NCBI GenBank assembly: GCA_029821735.1
Contig: JALGSU010000012.1
Coordinates: 1 to 64,000 of the forward strand
Length of the DNA: 64,000 bases
Source of the DNA: Candidatus Zipacnadia bacterium
GTDB taxonomy: Bacteria; Armatimonadota; Zipacnadia; Zipacnadales; UBA5352
Reading direction: 5' to 3'
How positions within the stretch are numbered: the first letter of the stretch is position 1; each line of letters opens with the position of its first letter. Positions 35,818 to 62,357 of this stretch are shown here, piece after piece. Both the position numbers and the translations under genes were made by a program. The notes beneath the pieces were generated by a model, which had not been told where the DNA came from, ran no database searches, and worked only from the letters and a program-made list of their open reading frames with translations.

Positions 35818-38001
35818 TCACCGTGTCAAGCTCAGCGTTCGCATCGAGGTCCAGCGTGCGCCGCTTGACGCGGTTGCCGTCATCCGCACCAGGTACACTC
35901 CCGACGGTGCGCGCAACCCCGCCGCATTCCGTCCGTCCCATGCCAGCGAGTTGATGCCCTCCGCCATCGGTCGGTCCACCACGATAGTCTTCACCGCACG
36001 GCCCGCGATGTTGAGCACCTCGCAGGTGATCGACGCATCAGCCGATAGGGTGAAGGTCATCTGTGCCCCGACCGCCGTCGGGCAACATGCCAGCGAAGCC
36101 ACTGTCATCACGACGCTCTTCGAGCTTACCGTCGGACCGGTGGCAATGGCAGCTGGCGGCCCCGTAGCCAAGATCCCTTCGGCACGAGCTTTGAACCGGT
36201 AGCTCCACACGCAGTCCCGGTTCAGTGTCTTGCGCAGGTAGAAGACCTGGCCCGTAGTGGGCGACCCCTTACCCGCGGTCATGAGGAACGGGTTGCTCGG
36301 GTGTGCCATGCCGTCGCGGTAAAGAAACAGACGCACATACTCCGGCGACGACCCGGTGTACTTCACTCGGAAGCGGAACTCGGCGCCGATATCGCCGCTA
36401 TTGGGATCCACCCCATCGCCCACGAAGCCCGTGTCACCAACCCACGCGAGTCGGGGACTGCCCACGAACGGCCCGGCGGTGACTGCGGTCGGTGGCCCTG
36501 CTGCCAATGCCCCAACTGCACGAGCTTTGAACTGATAGCTCCATGCACAGTCCTGGTTCAGCGTCTTGCGCAGGTAGAAGACCTGGCCGGTGGCAGGGGA
36601 GCCCTTACCTGCAGTCAGGGCGAACGGGTTGAGCGGGTGCGGCACACCGTCGCGATACAGGAGCAGGCGCACATACTCCGGTGACGGGCCGGTGAATTTC
36701 ACTCGGAAGCGGAACTCGGCGCCGACGGCGCCGCTATTGGGATCCACCCCGTCGCTCATGAAGCCCGTGTCGCCCACCCACGCGAGGCTGGAACTGTCCC
36801 CGATCGTCACTGACGCTTCGCCGGTGGCGCCGTCGTCGATGCCATCGTTGGGTGTCACCACACAGCGCCAAGTCTGACCGGGACTCGTTCTCCACGAGCC
36901 AAGCCCCGGCCAGACGCAATCCGTCTGCAGCACACCGTTCTTGTACCACTGGTACTTGTAGGTAACTGGATCGCCGTCGGGGTCAGTGCTACCCGAGGCG
37001 TTGGCCCGCAGCGAGTCGGCGGTGTTCGGACTCGCGGGGGAGATCACCACCGTCGGCTGCGTCGGGGGCGTGTTGCTGCGCGCGAACTTCTGGATGCGGC
37101 TGTTGTTACTGTCGGCCACGTACACGTTGCCGGAGGCACTAACCCCGATGCCGTCGGGGTGGTCGAACTGCCCATTGCCGGTGCCCTCCGAGCCCCACTT
37201 GGTGATAAACTCGCCGCTTGAGGTGAATTTCGCGATCTTGTTGTCGTAGTCGGATACGTATACGTTATCAGCGCCGTCAACCGCCACCCGCATCGGGCTG
37301 TGTAGCATCTGGTCGTAGGGGCCCGTGGTGCCCCACTGGGCAATGTATGCGCCGCTTGAGGTGAACTTCTGAACGCGTTGGTTGCCCCTGTCTACGACAT
37401 ACACTTTGCCGGAGACATCAACGGCAATGCCGGAGGGGTACTGGAACTGCCCATTGCCGATGCCCCAAGATCCCCATTTGGTAATGAACGCACCGTTTGC
37501 GGTGAACTTCTGAACGCGGTGGTTCTGTTCCTCAACTACATAGACGTGGCCGGAAGTACCTACAGCCACGCCGTAGGGCCAATTGAACTGCCCATTGCCG
37601 GTGCCCTCGGTACCCCACTTGGTGATAAACTCGCCGCTTGAGGTGAACTTCTGGATACGGTGGTTCTGGGTGTCGGCCACATATACATTGCCGGAGCCAT
37701 CTATAGCCACACCCCGGGCGACGCAGAACTGCCCATTGCCGGTGCCGCCAGAGCCCCATTTAGTGATGAGCGAACCGTCAGAGGTGAACTTCTGGATGTT
37801 GCTGTTGCTGCAGGCTGCTACGTACACGTGACCGGAGGCATCGAGCGCCACGCCTGCCGGGTAACTCTCCTCTTCCAAACCGGTGGCAGGGATGCCCCAC
37901 TTGGTGACGAAGGTATAGATCTGCGCCTGGGCAGCCGTAGCCGCCAGCATCAACACGACACACATGCAGACTGCGCTCTTTAGAACATCTCGCCGCATCA
38001 T
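35818..38001 (-). CDS. Secreted NHL-repeat beta-propeller protein with two tandem ~112-aa repeats and FlgD-Ig-like C terminus
   Basis: Signal peptide MMRRDVLKSAVCMCVVLMLAATAAQA; five to six NHL blades; two near-identical LAWVGDTGF..DGVDPNSG modules; C-terminal NIAGRAVKTIV...LAWDGRNAAGLRAPSGVYLVRM. Confidence 0.9.
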   Translation of the reverse strand: MMRRDVLKSAVCMCVVLMLAATAAQAQIYTFVTKWGIPATGLEEESYPAGVALDASGHVYVAACSNSNIQKFTSDGSLITKWGSGGTGNGQFCVARGVAIDGSGNVYVADTQNHRIQKFTSSGEFITKWGTEGTGNGQFNWPYGVAVGTSGHVYVVEEQNHRVQKFTANGAFITKWGSWGIGNGQFQYPSGIAVDVSGKVYVVDRGNQRVQKFTSSGAYIAQWGTTGPYDQMLHSPMRVAVDGADNVYVSDYDNKIAKFTSSGEFITKWGSEGTGNGQFDHPDGIGVSASGNVYVADSNNSRIQKFARSNTPPTQPTVVISPASPNTADSLRANASGSTDPDGDPVTYKYQWYKNGVLQTDCVWPGLGSWRTSPGQTWRCVVTPNDGIDDGATGEASVTIGDSSSLAWVGDTGFMSDGVDPNSGAVGAEFRFRVKFTGPSPEYVRLLLYRDGVPHPLNPFALTAGKGSPATGQVFYLRKTLNQDCAWSYQFKARAVGALAAGPPTAVTAGPFVGSPRLAWVGDTGFVGDGVDPNSGDIGAEFRFRVKYTGSSPEYVRLFLYRDGMAHPSNPFLMTAGKGSPTTGQVFYLRKTLNRDCVWSYRFKARAEGILATGPPAAIATGPTVSSKSVVMTVASLACCPTAVGAQMTFTLSADASITCEVLNIAGRAVKTIVVDRPMAEGINSLAWDGRNAAGLRAPSGVYLVRMTATASSGARWTSMRTLSLTR

Positions 38002-38341
38002 ACCCAACTCCCCGCTCGCGTAGCATTGTGAGACCAAGTCATTATACAGCGGTGCCAGAATATTGCAATGATGACAAGCAGATACCTCTGGTGAACATAT
38101 CAACGCATGAGCTGCCATAAGCTTGAGCACATATTGGCCTCGCCAGGAACAAGGACGGCAGCGGCAACGAGCACAGCAACAATGACGACGCGGAATCTCC
38201 GCTACCCGTCTTCGCTGAAGCTTGGGCCTTCGCTAAAGCTATGGCCCACAAGCCGGTGGGAAGGCAAGGTCCGGGCACCACAAATGGCGAATGACTCATC
38301 GCAAGTCGTACTAGCCACACACACCGACGGGAGCGAGCGAC

Positions 38342-51156: not shown

Positions 51157-51906
51157 TTAGCTGAGATCTGCCAGGAAGCGCTTGACCTCTGCGCGGAAGA
51201 GCCTCGGGCGGCTCCACGCCAGCGGATGGGCGCCGGTGGGCACGAAGACGACCTTCGCGGTCGGGATCTGCCGCGCGACCGCGCACATGCCCCGCTCGAT
51301 ATCCGGCAGCACCTCGTCGGACAGACTCCCGGTCATCAGCACCGGGCAGCGCACCTCGTTCAGGCGACCGTGGAAGACGCTGCCGCCTGCCTCGACCGCC
51401 GCCAGCATCATGGCGCTGTCGGCGGCCACCACGCGCCCGAAATCGTCGCCATGCGCGTGGCGCCAGAAGGCGAGTGCTCGCTCATCGCGGCGGTCCCTCT
51501 CAGCGATCCAAGCGTGCACGCGGGCCTCATCGAGGAACTCCCCGAACCAGCTGTCGGCGACCACCGCGCGCACTCTGCCCGGCGCCATGATGGTCGCGCT
51601 CAATGCCACTACCGCACCGCCGCTGACGCCGACGAGCACCGCGTCGCTCAGGTCGAGGTCGGCCATGAGCGCCACCACGGCCTCGGCACTGGACCACCAG
51701 AAGTTCGTGGGCAATTCCGTCAGCCGATCCGAGCGCCCGTAGCCGGGGTAGTCTGGGCAAATGACCTCGAACTCGCGTGCGAAGCGCTCGATGGTCGGGC
51801 CATGCACTGCCGATGACTCCGTGTTGCCGGGCAGCAACACGAGCGGCGGACCCTCGCCGGTTCGCTCGTAGTGCACGCGCGTCCCGTTGTGGTCGTAGGT
51901 TGGCAT
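51157..51906 (-). CDS. Alpha/beta hydrolase
   Basis: HYERTGEGPPLVLLPGNTESS; CPDYPGYGRSDR; VLVGVSGGAVVALS. Confidence 0.93.
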   Translation of the reverse strand: MPTYDHNGTRVHYERTGEGPPLVLLPGNTESSAVHGPTIERFAREFEVICPDYPGYGRSDRLTELPTNFWWSSAEAVVALMADLDLSDAVLVGVSGGAVVALSATIMAPGRVRAVVADSWFGEFLDEARVHAWIAERDRRDERALAFWRHAHGDDFGRVVAADSAMMLAAVEAGGSVFHGRLNEVRCPVLMTGSLSDEVLPDIERGMCAVARQIPTAKVVFVPTGAHPLAWSRPRLFRAEVKRFLADLS

Positions 51907-52074
51907 GGGGCCGAGAGTTCGACGCGGGCGTGGCGAGGGCCTTCCACCTCGAAAGCGGCCGTTTGTCAGGGCTTAGCGGGCAAACCAATCTGTTTCACCC
52001 ACGACACGAGATCGCGGGGTCCGGCTCGGAAGGCTAACTGCAGAGGTCGTTTCAATACGCTGCAGGCACACGTC

Positions 52075-53502
52075 CTACGGCGCAATCAGTCTGATATGGA
52101 GAACACTGTCCCCACTGAACGGTGCGCGGAAGGTGCTGTTGTCACCACCGTTTACGGAACCGCCAGTCACCGTCTCCCCTGTTTGCGGATTGAACCAGTT
52201 ATATGAAGCCGTGCCTTGCAGAGCAGCCAAGTTGACGATGACGGTGCCACCTGAAGGGTCATAGACGAGATATTCCCGCCCCGCGTCCGCGAGGCAGTAA
52301 CCGGAGTCCGCGATGGATTCATCGGGCAGCATCTCAGCGAGGTCTGCGAATCCTGCCGCAAATCCTCGGGTATGCCCCATGGCGGCCCGGATGGGATCCC
52401 ATTTGGAGTCGATTTCTCCGTAGGCCCCCCATTTCGGTGCATATGAATTGTACTGATCCATGAGAATGGGGTGGTTTCCCCTCGTGAATGTCTGCCAGAC
52501 CCACTTTCGTATGGCGAGCGAGGTGTCGTCCGTAGCGACTGCCCAGAGGTGATCCACGTCGTTGATGACGATCTTATCGCTGTAGGCGGCCGGCCCGCCC
52601 TGACGATAGTCGTAGGAGCCGTCCGCCGCACTTGGCGAAATCCAGTCGGCCGGTCCGGCTCTCAACAGTCCGTTCGTCTCTGCCTTTCTATGGCCTGCGG
52701 TGATGCCGACGAGATGCTGTTTCGGCTTCTCTGCCTCATAACTCTTCGCGTAGTTGACCATCTCATTCTGCCAGTTCGCAGAATCCGGGAAACTGGCTTC
52801 GTTCATGATCTCCCAGACCAGGTTATCCAAGTCATTGAGGGTATCAATCATCCTCCTCACGAGCAGTCGCTGAATCTCGAGCGCCGCGGGGTCTGTCGTG
52901 AAGAACGAGTTGCCATCTTCCCTGTCAAAGGCAGCCGCGAGCTCTGGATTGGTGTTGTTAGAGGGGTGCCATGCCACCGTCTGCCACTTGTCCGAGGTCC
53001 TGAAACCGTTGAACGAACCGAAGAACATGACGGAGAAGTAGATGCCTCGATCCTGAAGTCGAATGAGCCGGTCCCGCACATGATCGAAGTAGGCCTGGTC
53101 CAGTTCTGTCATATCGAATTTCGGTTTGCCGTCCGCTGCGTTGCCCGGCCCGGTGCGTTTCCAGGGATAGGCGCTGTATGTGGGGTAGGCAGAGCCGATC
53201 CAGATCCTGGTGAAATTGTGACCAAAGGACTCGAGGTAATCGAGAAACACCTCGAAATCGGCGTCGCTGAACGGGGAGTTCCGGTCGCCACTGCTCACGA
53301 CGTTCCACCAGACATGCGATCCGGTCATGTAGATAGCTTCCCCCGAGTCATCCGTGAAGTACCGCGAATTGCCTGGGTGCACGCGGAGTACGCCGCCGGT
53401 GGGTTCCGATGGAATCGAGGCCACGTCCGCGCCAGGCACACTTACTGCTCCTGCAAAGAAGAGAGCGAGAACGGAGTGGGAGAGGAATCGGCAAGTCTTC
53501 AT
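52075..53502 (-). CDS. Apiosidase-like/DUF4038-type secreted glycoside hydrolase
   Basis: Signal peptide MKTCRFLSHSVLALFFAGAVSVPGA; RYFTDDSGEAIYMTGSHVWWNV; NFTRIWIGSAYP; NLVWEIMNEASFPDS; putative collagen-binding-like C terminus. Confidence 0.82.
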   Translation of the reverse strand: MKTCRFLSHSVLALFFAGAVSVPGADVASIPSEPTGGVLRVHPGNSRYFTDDSGEAIYMTGSHVWWNVVSSGDRNSPFSDADFEVFLDYLESFGHNFTRIWIGSAYPTYSAYPWKRTGPGNAADGKPKFDMTELDQAYFDHVRDRLIRLQDRGIYFSVMFFGSFNGFRTSDKWQTVAWHPSNNTNPELAAAFDREDGNSFFTTDPAALEIQRLLVRRMIDTLNDLDNLVWEIMNEASFPDSANWQNEMVNYAKSYEAEKPKQHLVGITAGHRKAETNGLLRAGPADWISPSAADGSYDYRQGGPAAYSDKIVINDVDHLWAVATDDTSLAIRKWVWQTFTRGNHPILMDQYNSYAPKWGAYGEIDSKWDPIRAAMGHTRGFAAGFADLAEMLPDESIADSGYCLADAGREYLVYDPSGGTVIVNLAALQGTASYNWFNPQTGETVTGGSVNGGDNSTFRAPFSGDSVLHIRLIAP

Positions 53503-53524
53503 TGGGTTCCCCTTCTTAGCCGGG

Positions 53525-54271
53525 ATTGCCCATATGGAACTGGGCGCCCCGGCGTTGGCTGAACGGTCAGCCATTCACTGTGACGCTTCGGCAACTAGAC
53601 TCCGGAAACCTGCACATGCGGCTGTGGGACCCGAGATCGTCGGGGTCTGCCGCACATCTTGACGGTTTGTGGACTTCGTATTCGCCGAAAGGCTCTCCCA
53701 ACTGCCCAGGTCCAGGATGAGACGTTGGGTCTTCGTATGGGCCATTGCCGACGAGACCCACCGGGCATTCAGTGACGCCAACCCTTCCCGATTGCCCTTG
53801 GCGGAGAGTATCTCGGTCTCGAAACGTCCCACCGTATTTCGCGCTGCTGCCTTTCGATCGACCGGCCGTCTGCTCACCACCAATCGCATCGTCGGGTCCC
53901 GCGCAAGACGGTCCGCATCATTGGTGTCTGGGCATCCCGCCCGGCGACTATAGACCGACTGTCGAACCAACGGCACCAGGTGATGCTGGACGTTGCGCCC
54001 CGGCCGCTGCTCCGTCAGATACTGATCGGCCATATCCGTCAGTCCGAGCTTCTCACCCAACTCGCGATACGCCAGCAAGCCGGCGTCAGAGGTCATCTTG
54101 CTGCCCACAAACTCCAGCCGCACCCGAGCGTCGAATTCCAGGCTCAACGCCTCCTGTTGGCTTTGACTCATTGGGTGCCTCCCGCGATCATTGCTGCCAT
54201 GCCCGCTACGGCGTGTCTGCAGCCAGTTTCTTGGCACCCCTACCGAGAGCCTTCCTGCTCATATGGGCAAT
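53525..54271 (-). mobile_element. Internally deleted IS1380-family insertion sequence
   Basis: 12-bp inverted termini ATTGCCCATATG (53525-53536) and CATATGGGCAAT (54260-54271) bracket an IS1380-type transposase N-terminal fragment. Confidence 0.7.
53575..54171 (-). pseudogene. IS1380-family transposase, N-terminal fragment
   Basis: MSQSQQEALSLEFDARVRLEFVGSKMTSDAGLLAYRELGEKLGLTDMADQYLTEQRPGRNVQHHLVPLVRQSVYSRRAGCPDTNDADRLARDPTMRLVVSRR...AMAHTKTQRLILDL, then unrelated sequence. Confidence 0.85.
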
Positions 54272-54357
54272 GCGGGTCCACAGACCACAGAGGAGGGCCG
54301 GTGTACTGCGGCGAAGACGCTTGCGCCGTAGACCCTGCAGAGAACGGGTGATCAGCC

Positions 54358-56433
54358 ATGACCGGCGAGCAATTCGCGAACTACCAGCGCAAAGTCCATC
54401 TGGATATGCACCTGCCCGAGGACGCGCCGGGCATGTTCACGAACTTCGACCCCGTCGCGTATGTGAAGACACTGCGCGATGCGGACGTGAACTCCGTTGC
54501 GCTGTTCGCGCACTGCCACCACGGCAACTGCTACTTCGACACGAAAGTCGGCCACAAGCACGTGCACCTGCAGGCCGACTACCTGCGCGAACTGGCCGAG
54601 GAGTGCCGGCGCCACGACATTGCGACCACCGCCTACGTGAGCTGCAACTGGAACGCGCGCGGGCAGGAGCACCCCGACTGGATCCAGCGCGACAGCAGCC
54701 GCGAGCCGCGCTTCCACCAGGGCTACTGGTGGTGGATGTGCATGAACACAGGGTACGGCGATTTCCTCGCTGGGCTGGTGCGCGAAATCACCGAGGGCTA
54801 CCCCGTGGACGGCCTGTGGTTCGACATCACCTACGTAGCTGCTCCGGGGTGTTACTGCGAAGTGTGTCGGAGGCTGTTCCGTGAGCGATACGGGCGGGAG
54901 ATGCCGGTGGATCCGGAGCCGGCGACCGAGGACGCACGCGAGATGGAAGAGTTCCGCATGTGGACGGAGACCAACTTCCGGGCACGCATGTGCGAGCTGA
55001 TCCGCTCCATCGACCCGACCAAGGCAGTGAGCTGGAACCACGCGTCCGACATCACGCAGATGTACCTGGACAATGATCTGCTCGCCGACGTGCTCTTCCG
55101 CGAGACCCACACGCCGGAGGACTGGCTCCCCAGCTTCCAGGCGCGCTGGTTCCAGCAGTTTGGCATCCCGCATGAGGGTTGCACCTCGCGCTTCCACTAC
55201 GGTGGCTGGTCGAGCTTCTCATACAAGTCGGCGAACAAGCTGCATGTGGAGGCGGCCGGGGCGCTGGCGCATGGCGGGATCATCGACATCGGCGACCAGG
55301 CGCTGCACGACGGGACGCTCGACCGGGGCGCGTACGAGATCATCGGCGAGGTGTATGGGCGGGCGAAAGTGGTGGAGGAGCACTGCCGGGAGACGAAGAG
55401 CGTGCCGAACATCGCGGTGCTGCACTCTTCGCGCTCGCACCATCTGGCGAAGTGGGCCGAGCCAGTAAATCTGCGCCAGCCGATCAACAGCGTGTTCGGG
55501 GCAGGCCGGGCGTTGAACGAGACGCATCGGCATTACGACATATTGTGCGAGCGCTTCCTCGATCGGCTGGGCGAGTATCACGCGCTGATCGTGCCGGACC
55601 AGATTGTGCTCACCGACGACGAGACCGCAGCCATCCGCGACTACGTGCAGGCCGGCGGCGCGGTCATGGCCGCGTATCGTTGCGGCATGTTCGATGAGCG
55701 TAATGGCACGGTCGAACCGAACTTCCTGCGCGAGGTATGCGGCGTGAACCCGCTGGGCTTCGCGCCCTACTCGGTCGGGTATGTCACGGGCATCGGCTTC
55801 GATGTGGACGTGCCGAACGGTCCGGTGGTCTTCCGGAGTCCCGAGCATGGTGACTCGCCGAACGTCATCCCGGCGATGGAGTGCGAGGCCATCGACGCCG
55901 AGCCGCTGGCGGAGCTGACCCACCCGATCTACGAGCGCACGCCCGAGCACTTCTACTCCCACACTAACGCGGCTCCGGCGGAGCCCTCCGGGTTCGGCTC
56001 GATCTTCCGGCGCACGCTGGGGGATGGGCAGGTCATCTACTTCCCGTTCGACATCTTCAAGTTCTACCGGCTGGACAGCTACATCCCCATGCGCAATATC
56101 GTGGAGGCGCTGCTCGACCAGATCGCGCCGGTGCAGGAGGCGTACGTGGACGCGCCCAGCCAGGTCGAGGCGGTTCTGAGAGAGCGAGACGGGCGCCGAT
56201 ATCTGCACTTGGTGAACTACGCAAACATGAGATTTGGCGGGGGTTTCATGCCGATCGTGGTGGACGATGTGCCACCGATCTTCGAGATCAAGGTGCGGGT
56301 GCGCGGGCAGGCGGCGGCGGTGACTGAGATCCCGTCAGGGCATGCGCTGGAGTTCGAACAGGATGGCGAGTATACGGTCTTCACCATCCCGCGCCTGGAC
56401 ATTCACTCAATCATCGCGGTGGACATGGGGTAG
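54358..56433 (+). CDS. Glycoside-hydrolase-like protein (GH29/GH42-like TIM barrel with beta-galactosidase trimerisation-like region)
   Basis: FTNFDPVAYVKTLRDADVNSVALFAHCHHGNCYF; VDGLWFDITYVAAPGCYCEVCRRLFRERYGREMP; LIVPDQIVLTDDETAAIRDYVQAGGAVMAAYRCG. Confidence 0.78.
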   Translation: MTGEQFANYQRKVHLDMHLPEDAPGMFTNFDPVAYVKTLRDADVNSVALFAHCHHGNCYFDTKVGHKHVHLQADYLRELAEECRRHDIATTAYVSCNWNARGQEHPDWIQRDSSREPRFHQGYWWWMCMNTGYGDFLAGLVREITEGYPVDGLWFDITYVAAPGCYCEVCRRLFRERYGREMPVDPEPATEDAREMEEFRMWTETNFRARMCELIRSIDPTKAVSWNHASDITQMYLDNDLLADVLFRETHTPEDWLPSFQARWFQQFGIPHEGCTSRFHYGGWSSFSYKSANKLHVEAAGALAHGGIIDIGDQALHDGTLDRGAYEIIGEVYGRAKVVEEHCRETKSVPNIAVLHSSRSHHLAKWAEPVNLRQPINSVFGAGRALNETHRHYDILCERFLDRLGEYHALIVPDQIVLTDDETAAIRDYVQAGGAVMAAYRCGMFDERNGTVEPNFLREVCGVNPLGFAPYSVGYVTGIGFDVDVPNGPVVFRSPEHGDSPNVIPAMECEAIDAEPLAELTHPIYERTPEHFYSHTNAAPAEPSGFGSIFRRTLGDGQVIYFPFDIFKFYRLDSYIPMRNIVEALLDQIAPVQEAYVDAPSQVEAVLRERDGRRYLHLVNYANMRFGGGFMPIVVDDVPPIFEIKVRVRGQAAAVTEIPSGHALEFEQDGEYTVFTIPRLDIHSIIAVDMG

Positions 56434-59965: not shown

Positions 59966-61654
59966 ATGCAGGTACGGACACTGATAGCAGCAGTGATCAT
60001 GGCGGCGACGCTCGGGGCGGGCTGGTGCCAGGAGTTCCCCGACATGCGTATGCAGAAGAAGCTGATCGAGTGTGGCTGGGACACGCCGACCACCGACAAG
60101 CTGGGCGAGTATCTGGAGCAGATCGAGCAGGCGCCCTATGACGGCATCCGGATCAAAGCGGTTGCCACCGACGTTGAGGGTAAGCCGGCCTCACTCTCAT
60201 ACGCTTTCTACGCTGCCAAGTGGGAGCGCGAGGCGTTCGGGCAGGTCATTGAGGACCTCAAGGCCTGTGACTGGCAGCGGATGACGGACAACTTCCTGGC
60301 CACGGGCGCCAATCCCGGCGGCGTGGACTGGTTCGATGACGAGGGCTGGGGCGAGATCGCCAGCCACATGGGGATAGCGGCCTGGATCGCGAAGGAGGGT
60401 GGCCTCAAGGGCATCGTCTTCGACGCCGAGAGCTACTCTGAGTATCACCAGTGGATGTACAACGAGCAGCCCATGCGTGCCGAACACAGCTTCAATGAGT
60501 ACTACGCGAAGGCCCGCGAACGGGGCCGGCAGGTGATGGAAGCCATCGTGGCTGAGTACCCCGATATCACGGTGTTCATGTTCTTCGGCAACGTGGTCAA
60601 CTCGCCCTCGGCTGGGGGGGCTGACCCGCGGCCCGCCCTCGCCGGGGCGCAGTACGGTCTCTACCCGGCATTCATCGACGGTTGGCTGGACGCAGTGCCG
60701 CCGACTGTGAAGCTGGTTGATGCGTGTGAGAGCGCCTATCGCTTCACTACCATGACCGACTTCCTCACGGCGGCCCAGTTCATCCGGGGGGAGGCGCAGT
60801 CACTGGTTTCGCCAGAGAATCGGGCCAAGTACCGCGCTCAGGTGCAGGTGGGTTTCGGCATCTATCTGGACGCTCACGCCAATGAGCCCGACGCTGCGTG
60901 GTATCTCGATCCGGGCGATGGCACACCCACGGAACTTCTGGGGCGCAACATCACCAACGCTCTGCGAGTGAGCGACGAGTATGTGTGGACGTGGGGCGAG
61001 AAGTGGCGCTGGTGGCCGGGAACTGAGAAGTCTTGGGAGGAGGCCCTGCCCGGGATCACGGAGACGCTGAACTGGGCGCGTGACCCGATGGGCTCGGCAG
61101 TGGAGCGGCTTGCGGCGATGGAGCAGGAGGGCACGGCGGTGAGCTCGGCCCGGAACGGTGATTTCGGATCGGAGACTTCCGAGGAGGCTGATGGGAGAGA
61201 GGTGCAGTGGCAGGAGGGTGGCGTTCCGGCAGGTTGGCACTCCTGGCAGGGCGGCGACAAGGAGGGCGTCTTCACATGGGATCGTGAGGTGGGTGCCACG
61301 GCACCGGGCTCGGCGCGGGCTGCGGGAGTGGGGACAGGCTGCTTCCTCCAGGGGGGACCGGCGCAACCGGGCGAGAGCTACTTCGTGCGTGCGAAGGTGA
61401 AGCTGCAGGGCACGGGGACAGCGAGCATCCGCGTGCGCTGGCAGTCGGCGGAGGACAAGTGGACGCTGGAGAGGCTCGATCGCGTCATGATGCCGGCGGC
61501 GACCCCGGGCGACGATGGGTGGCAGCTGATCGAGGGCGTGGCGACGGTGCCCGATGGTGCGGCCAACCTGTTCCTGCTGCTTGGGATGGGCGGTCAGCCG
61601 TCCGCGGAGAGCGTGGTCTGGTTCGACGACGTGAGCCTTGTCCGCGTGCGGTAA
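59966..61654 (+). CDS. Hypothetical secreted protein with C-terminal CBM4/9-like domain
   Basis: Signal peptide; GIVFDAESYSEYHQWMYNEQPM; C-terminal PGESYFVRAKVKLQGTGTASIRVRWQ...VVWFDDVSLVRVR. Confidence 0.75.
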   Translation: MQVRTLIAAVIMAATLGAGWCQEFPDMRMQKKLIECGWDTPTTDKLGEYLEQIEQAPYDGIRIKAVATDVEGKPASLSYAFYAAKWEREAFGQVIEDLKACDWQRMTDNFLATGANPGGVDWFDDEGWGEIASHMGIAAWIAKEGGLKGIVFDAESYSEYHQWMYNEQPMRAEHSFNEYYAKARERGRQVMEAIVAEYPDITVFMFFGNVVNSPSAGGADPRPALAGAQYGLYPAFIDGWLDAVPPTVKLVDACESAYRFTTMTDFLTAAQFIRGEAQSLVSPENRAKYRAQVQVGFGIYLDAHANEPDAAWYLDPGDGTPTELLGRNITNALRVSDEYVWTWGEKWRWWPGTEKSWEEALPGITETLNWARDPMGSAVERLAAMEQEGTAVSSARNGDFGSETSEEADGREVQWQEGGVPAGWHSWQGGDKEGVFTWDREVGATAPGSARAAGVGTGCFLQGGPAQPGESYFVRAKVKLQGTGTASIRVRWQSAEDKWTLERLDRVMMPAATPGDDGWQLIEGVATVPDGAANLFLLLGMGGQPSAESVVWFDDVSLVRVR

Positions 61655-61883: not shown

Positions 61884-62357
61884 ATGTTCTCAGGGGTAAC
61901 TGTGGGGCGCAGAGCGGGGGCCACCTCGATCGAGGTAGCGCTAGTGGCGCCCGTGGTCATAGTCTTGTTCCTTGGCCTCATTGAGATCGTCTCCCTGATC
62001 AAATGTACGAAGTCGCTTGAGGGAGCCACCTCCGAGGCTATTCAGTGCGCCTATCTCGGCGGCTCGCCGCTGGCGATCGACCAACGTGTTGACAAGTCAG
62101 CCAGCGACCTGCCGGCTGACTCGATCATACGGCTCTATCAGTACAGGAACTACGACGCGTCATCGCAAGTCTGGGACGCCTGGCAGACGCTGGACCCCGA
62201 CGGCGTCATCAACCCCGCAAAGCCAGGAGGCGAATTGCGTGTTCGCCTCAGCTACGAGTACTCGATGATCTCCGGTCGTCTGTTCTCCGTGGTGACCGGC
62301 GCGCCGGGCACCGATTCGGTCATGCTCATCGCGGAGAGAACCGAGGAGCGACAGTAG
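61884..62357 (+). CDS. TadE-like pilus-assembly protein
   Basis: RRAGATSIEVALVAPVVIVLFLGLIEIVSLIKC: TadE-like N-terminal processing/TM region. Confidence 0.82.
   Translation: MFSGVTVGRRAGATSIEVALVAPVVIVLFLGLIEIVSLIKCTKSLEGATSEAIQCAYLGGSPLAIDQRVDKSASDLPADSIIRLYQYRNYDASSQVWDAWQTLDPDGVINPAKPGGELRVRLSYEYSMISGRLFSVVTGAPGTDSVMLIAERTEERQ

Follow-up and report, generated by a model that had tools for sequence, protein, structure and literature searches.

A remnant IS1380-family element upstream of an apiosidase-like gene in Candidatus Zipacnadia, and related right ends across Armatimonadota

In the genome of a Candidatus Zipacnadia bacterium, the end of an insertion sequence (IS) lies immediately upstream of a GC-poor gene and faces its start codon. 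The question raised by this locus is whether the IS delivered the gene, supplies its upstream control region, or came to lie there independently. IS1380 elements can move DNA that lies beside their 3' end, and they carry an outward promoter (PMC9330008). A preliminary description of the locus had likened the arrangement to that of ISEcp1, a member of this family.

The window is a 64,000-nt stretch of contig JALGSU010000012.1, and all window coordinates are positions in this stretch, numbered on the forward strand (Table 1). It derives from a 375-kb contig within a 5.7-Mb genome bin. The class Candidatus Zipacnadia has been described from deep-sea sediments (PMC10290634).

Table 1. Features of the locus, in positions of the window
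Feature	Positions	Strand	Basis
Alpha/beta hydrolase host gene, distal side	51157-51906	-	profile match
TCCAC, candidate 5-bp target duplication, distal copy	51943-51947		chance P about 0.12-0.23
Putative degenerate alternative right end of the whole unit	51948-51964		5-6 of 17 bases match IRR/IRL; weak
Block common to the window and G026:C312, 91.6% nt identity	52013-53513	-	nucleotide alignment
Apiosidase-like secreted protein gene, 475 aa, DUF6298 / Collagen_bind_2, foreign composition	52075-53502	-	profiles, composition
Ribosome-binding-site-like AAGGGG between IRR edge and ATG	53509-53514	-	read from sequence
Dead, internally deleted IS1380-family element, 757 bp, with both terminal inverted repeats	53520-54276	-	profiles, repeats, copies elsewhere
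Right terminal inverted repeat (IRR), + strand CCGGGATTGCCCATATG	53520-53536	-	repeat search; edge matches other copies
Right-end segment, about 175 bp, recurring solo before genes	53520-53694	-	copies elsewhere
Transposase remnant ORF	53575-54237	-	Pfam and NCBIfam profiles
Left terminal inverted repeat (IRL), + strand CATATGGGCAATGCGGG	54260-54276	-	identical to the IRL of G018:C113
TCCAC, candidate 5-bp target duplication, adjoining IRL	54277-54281		chance P about 0.12-0.23
GHL6 / alpha-L-fucosidase-like host gene, IRL side	54358-56433	+	profile match; orthologues

The IS1380-family element

The window element is a remnant of the IS1380 family, complete from end to end and internally deleted. 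Its minus-strand ORF, rightly recognized as a transposase fragment in the preliminary description, matches Pfam DDE_Tnp_1_4 (PF13701) above the cut-off (E 1.3e-28, profile positions 3-145 of 435) and the NCBIfam IS1380 transposase NF033539 (E 1.2e-22, positions 2-135 of 419). NF033539 scores 80 bits, short of its 180-bit cut-off, owing to the loss of the remaining profile positions. The IS1380 transposase N-terminus is matched only by 53704-54141; the N-terminal third is left and the remaining transposase is deleted. This remnant is the only PF13701 match in the source genome.

The two ends form a 17-nt inverted repeat that is 88% complementary. The repeat near the gene had been placed at 53525-53536, about 22 nt from the ATG at 53502. 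It is real, close upstream and in the same orientation as the gene, but it extends to position 53520, and the gap from this edge to the ATG is 17 nt. About 25 other copies break at the base equivalent to 53520, with unrelated flanks. Originally described as an IS1380 end, the right end does face the gene, but the description understated the element, in which both ends are present.

Target duplications were sought at these ends. None is found at the IS ends in the window (TTAG vs TCCA), at three other two-ended remnants, or, by comparison of the printed end sequences, in the copy of genome G037 and the intact-transposase copy of genome G036. Since sister copies lack a duplication as well, its absence at the window IS ends is uninformative. 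Old or rearranged copies can be expected to have lost the duplication, and membership in IS1380 therefore rests on the transposase and the ends, as a remnant only.

Related elements occur in several forms. The G037 copy (contig C8) is an IS1380 remnant with both ends. Loci L093, L105, and L119 are MITE-like two-ended versions of 385, 575, and 655 bp, with their insides deleted and no target duplications. A candidate active source of this IS1380 group is the element of G036:C441 (L063:415-3069), which encodes an intact 455-aa IS1380 transposase and adjoins an IS3-type integrase ORF. Its IR-like ends lie about 200 bp past the transposase stop codon and upstream of the transposase start. The right-end segment is mostly non-coding in this intact relative, as its transposase stops about 200 bp inside the IRR.

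Origin of the apiosidase-like gene

The gene facing the right end encodes a 475-aa protein in which DUF6298 and Collagen_bind_2 score above their cut-offs. The label apiosidase, used in the preliminary description, reflects a domain match, but Pfam Apiosidase (PF13204) reaches 21.3 bits, below its 26.5-bit cut-off. No solved-structure relative of the protein was found, and 'apiosidase-like' is a loose label.

The lower GC content reported for the gene was borne out. At 57.6%, positions 52075-53502 fall below all 526 sliding windows (mean 64.9%, sd 2.2%), and third-position GC is 0.70 vs 0.79-0.87 in the neighbours. Just 6 of the 526 windows equal or exceed the gene in tetranucleotide distance, and some of these overlap the gene itself. 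A second GC-poor stretch at 35818-38130 encodes an NHL-repeat-like secreted protein with a C-terminal sorting-like domain, as judged by eye. Elsewhere in the window, a TadE-like pseudopilin ORF was recognized by eye at 61884-62357 (MFSGVTVGRRAGATSIEVALVAPVVIVLFLGLIEIVSL).

Among 291 genomes of the phylum, a close homologue of the protein is found only in G026 (89% protein identity), a genome of a different family in the same order as the source; all others are at most 45% identical. The window and G026 share a block whose flanks are unrelated on both sides. Between the two copies of the gene, dS is 0.21 and dN/dS is 0.27. The G026 copy is also GC-poor within its contig (0.558 vs 0.643), a short contig of 7.3 kb from a bin with about 7% contamination. 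No IS1380 end is recognisable in the 66 bp between the G026 copy and the contig end, which counts against delivery of the gene by the IS. Though the G026 upstream flank resembles a decayed IS1380 end by eye, the right-end profile gave no match and this candidate was rejected.

The copy on G026:C312 lies in reverse orientation within the first part of a signal-peptide-like ORF (L058:5616-5748). Ahead of this ORF is a weak match to the right end, 83% identical over 41 bp to a G036 copy (profile E 1.7).

The G026 copy is 91.6% identical yet belongs to another family, differs in its flanks and has no IS1380 end ahead of it, so the gene has entered both genomes by horizontal transfer. The earlier claim that it is foreign to the host lineage agrees with its deviant composition and with its sole close homologue in another family.

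The proposed explanation is that the IS1380-family element works, or worked, like ISEcp1 and ISPme1, with a right end that faces outward into the next gene. This end would supply the upstream control region of that gene, most likely a promoter or leader. The window copy may also have delivered the apiosidase-like gene as a transposable module, which would span from the IRL at 54276 to the degenerate alternative right end near 51948. As the best explanation overall, an outward-acting IS1380 right end that is here possibly also the vehicle of the gene is given an even chance.

The junctions bear on delivery. Homology with G026 runs out on the 5' side of the gene at 53513, within 7 bp of the IS edge, which fits an IS that was present when the segment was delivered. 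The G026 sequence upstream of the gene was not found in the window beyond the IRL. Together, the junctions would fit a unit starting at the IRL and already containing the IS, or an IS-adjacent deletion.

The preliminary description had called for a degenerate right repeat near 51910-52070 and a short duplication around the unit, and a candidate for each is present. The TCCAC pair brackets the IS and the gene, but a 5-mer repeat of this kind is within chance. At the point of the distal TCCAC, near 51948, GC steps from 75.6% to 55.4%. The candidate alternative end matches the true ends at just 5-6 of 17 positions, which counts against the best explanation. Alternative ends of ISEcp1 have 3-12 matching positions and require a terminal G (PMC12116815), so the end at 51948-51964 is permissible, though weak. 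An ISEcp1-style transposable module is plausible from these features.

Neither a donor nor an empty site for the IS and gene as a unit was found in the relatives searched, and this also counts against the best explanation. The GHL6 gene has orthologues of 61-64% identity in eight same-family genomes, in other gene contexts. When an empty site was sought via this flank, none of the eight orthologues retained the window's other neighbours.

The strongest rival is independent arrival of the gene and the IS. The foreign gene would have come by other means, with the IS1380 element inserted upstream or an IS-adjacent deletion stripping away the native upstream region of the gene, and the right end then kept as a promoter or because it was harmless. 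Other right ends precede native genes (one of them heparinase-like) and genes of ordinary composition, an adjacent deletion would be in line with the missing target duplication at the IS ends, and this IS was not at the 5' edge of the G026 copy when it moved. However, independent arrival requires an extra event for the stop of homology so close to the IS edge (7 bp) and for the G026 upstream sequence missing beyond the IRL. It also leaves the TCCAC repeat to chance. We regard this rival as a real possibility, somewhat under even.

The two accounts, module transposition and independent arrival, carry almost equal weight, and the junctions tip the balance slightly towards the module. The view that this IS moved the gene, rather than joining it later, is accordingly a tentative one. 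The preliminary claim of capture with the IS, on the model of one-ended transposition by ISEcp1, finds agreement in the foreign gene and the nearby homology stop, but the transposase is dead and the alternative end is weak.

Right ends across the phylum

Pattern and similarity searches of relatives recovered about 27 usable copies of this right end, diverged and for the most part solo, in the Armatimonadota class and phylum of the source. In a taxon-wide scan, the exact right-end pattern was found in five records. Four are named Armatimonadota or Candidatus Zipacnadia; the fifth, labelled Bacillota, is probably G262, a genome placed in Armatimonadota.

The position of these copies relative to genes is strongly biased. 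A gene start faces the right end within 120 nt in 19 of the 27 copies, whereas the proportion is 9.7% for random positions and 10.8% when these are drawn from intergenic DNA. In this test, a gene start is an ORF of at least 250 aa in the same direction that starts at most 120 nt past the edge, with ORFs called mechanically. The distances from edge to start are 0-112 nt. When classified by nearest gene, none of the right ends faces a gene end, whereas random positions give 123 starts and 157 ends. By this measure, 10 copies face a start outright and 9 more have a same-direction ORF overlapping the element, whose mechanical start reaches 96-263 nt back into it. Copies from one genome or from a tandem duplication (G041, L098) are not independent in these counts.

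Many of the downstream proteins are confirmed by Pfam, including rhodanese, D-Ala ligase-like, GH2, GH5 cellulase, GH123, DUF4838, oligogalacturonate lyase, radical SAM, and epimerase proteins. A sulfatase-like ORF is also among the genes behind right ends. At L098:5441 and 6725 (G041:C73), a right end and a beta-propeller (PD40) gene are tandemly duplicated together, in units that are 80% identical.

Genes behind the other right ends are mostly of ordinary composition, and foreign composition was rejected as their general trait. The source genome has two further right-end copies, each just upstream of a same-direction gene. One (L004:6118, contig C23) precedes the gene for a 569-aa protein that is 33% identical to the product of window positions 59966-61654. 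The other (L005:6695-6711, contig C21) precedes a heparinase-like gene with 66-68% identical orthologues in three same-family genomes, where the right end is absent. This gene is family-native, which indicates that the IS inserted before a resident gene. Capture is therefore not the general rule, and the earlier suggestion does not extend to right ends beside ordinary or native genes.

The position bias suggests a function for the right end. A truncated 179-bp right end of ISEcp1 drives ramAp (PMC13253676). Transposable modules, an ISPme1 promoter, and the fixation of an ISEcp1 remnant of about 200 bp as a promoter are likewise known for IS1380 (PMC9330008). The right ends described here are like ISEcp1 remnants in length, position, and orientation, from which we infer that they provide the control region ahead of the gene that they face.

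Promoter activity of the right end is somewhat probable. The idea of ISEcp1-like promoter supply, raised in the preliminary description, is in keeping with right ends that face starts. A sigma-70-like promoter was not found on the outward strand of the right end, which counts against it, although that consensus may not be the one used in this phylum. An Rfam search gave no match. The single-sequence fold of the right end looks strong (z -3.4), but a structured-RNA leader was rejected as evidence, as the alignment is without covariation.

The remaining rivals concern the pattern as a whole. The element could be a neutral relic of an intergenic insertion that decayed, with its closeness to the start functionless and the pattern a matter of insertion bias only. 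The window element is dead, IS are commonly located within 100 bp of genes (PMC9208149), and the genes on both sides start next to the element and point away from it, so that orientation alone says little at this locus. However, unoriented insertion bias would give about half gene ends, and of about 27 right ends at least 19 face starts and none faces an end. The right end alone is kept in most copies, with the left end on the inner side retained in 4 of the 26 checked. A neutral relic is improbable.

Least likely, and very improbable, is a strand-specific target effect, in which fixed-orientation insertion just upstream of ribosome-binding sites gives no promoter; it accords with the strong orientation bias and the short distances, but the flank beside the right end has no consensus and oriented targeting is not known for IS1380.

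A broader reading of the outward-acting right end is that about 27 dispersed right ends are what is left of an IS1380 element of marine-sediment Armatimonadota, most copies having lost the rest, and that they serve as mobile promoters for native and foreign genes. This reading is possible and is offered with reserve. If true, it would be a natural promoter-distribution system outside antibiotic resistance that includes secreted carbohydrate enzymes. Research on IS1380 elements has dealt almost exclusively with their carriage of resistance genes in clinical bacteria. Their anatomy recurs here in an uncultured marine phylum, which suggests that such elements may shape the expression and transfer of ordinary genes, such as those for sugar enzymes.

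Comparison with known systems

The closest comparison is to ISEcp1 (ISEc9), which forms modules with blaCTX-M and other genes. Both have an IS1380-family transposase and a right end that lies a short distance from an adjacent foreign gene and faces it. A 5-bp direct repeat can also be drawn around the IS and gene, though here it is within chance. Truncated right ends of 179-200 bp persist upstream of genes in the ISEcp1 system (PMC13253676, PMC9330008, PMC12116815). In contrast, the window element is dead and diverged, and belongs to an uncultured member of Armatimonadota. The ISEcp1 promoter is TTGAAA-18N-TACAAT, whereas the window right end has no recognisable sigma-70 promoter. For the transposable modules (TMos) of ISPme1, also of the IS1380 family, the likeness is in arrangement alone.

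MITE-like non-autonomous IS derivatives keep both ends and lose the inside, as do the 757-bp window element and the three shorter versions found elsewhere. Most copies here differ in being solo right ends, and no target duplications were seen.

Promoter fixation is the remaining comparison, and putative mobile promoters were reportedly described by Matus-Garcia et al. in 2012. In the case of the ISEcp1 remnant before blaOXA-232, as here, short IS-end remnants are kept directly before unrelated genes. The present set differs in comprising about 27 mostly solo right ends spread over a bacterial class and phylum. They precede genes for sugar enzymes, a sulfatase-like ORF, and radical SAM, ligase, and epimerase genes. 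The added interest over the known IS1380 arrangement is this class-wide, orientation-biased set of right ends.
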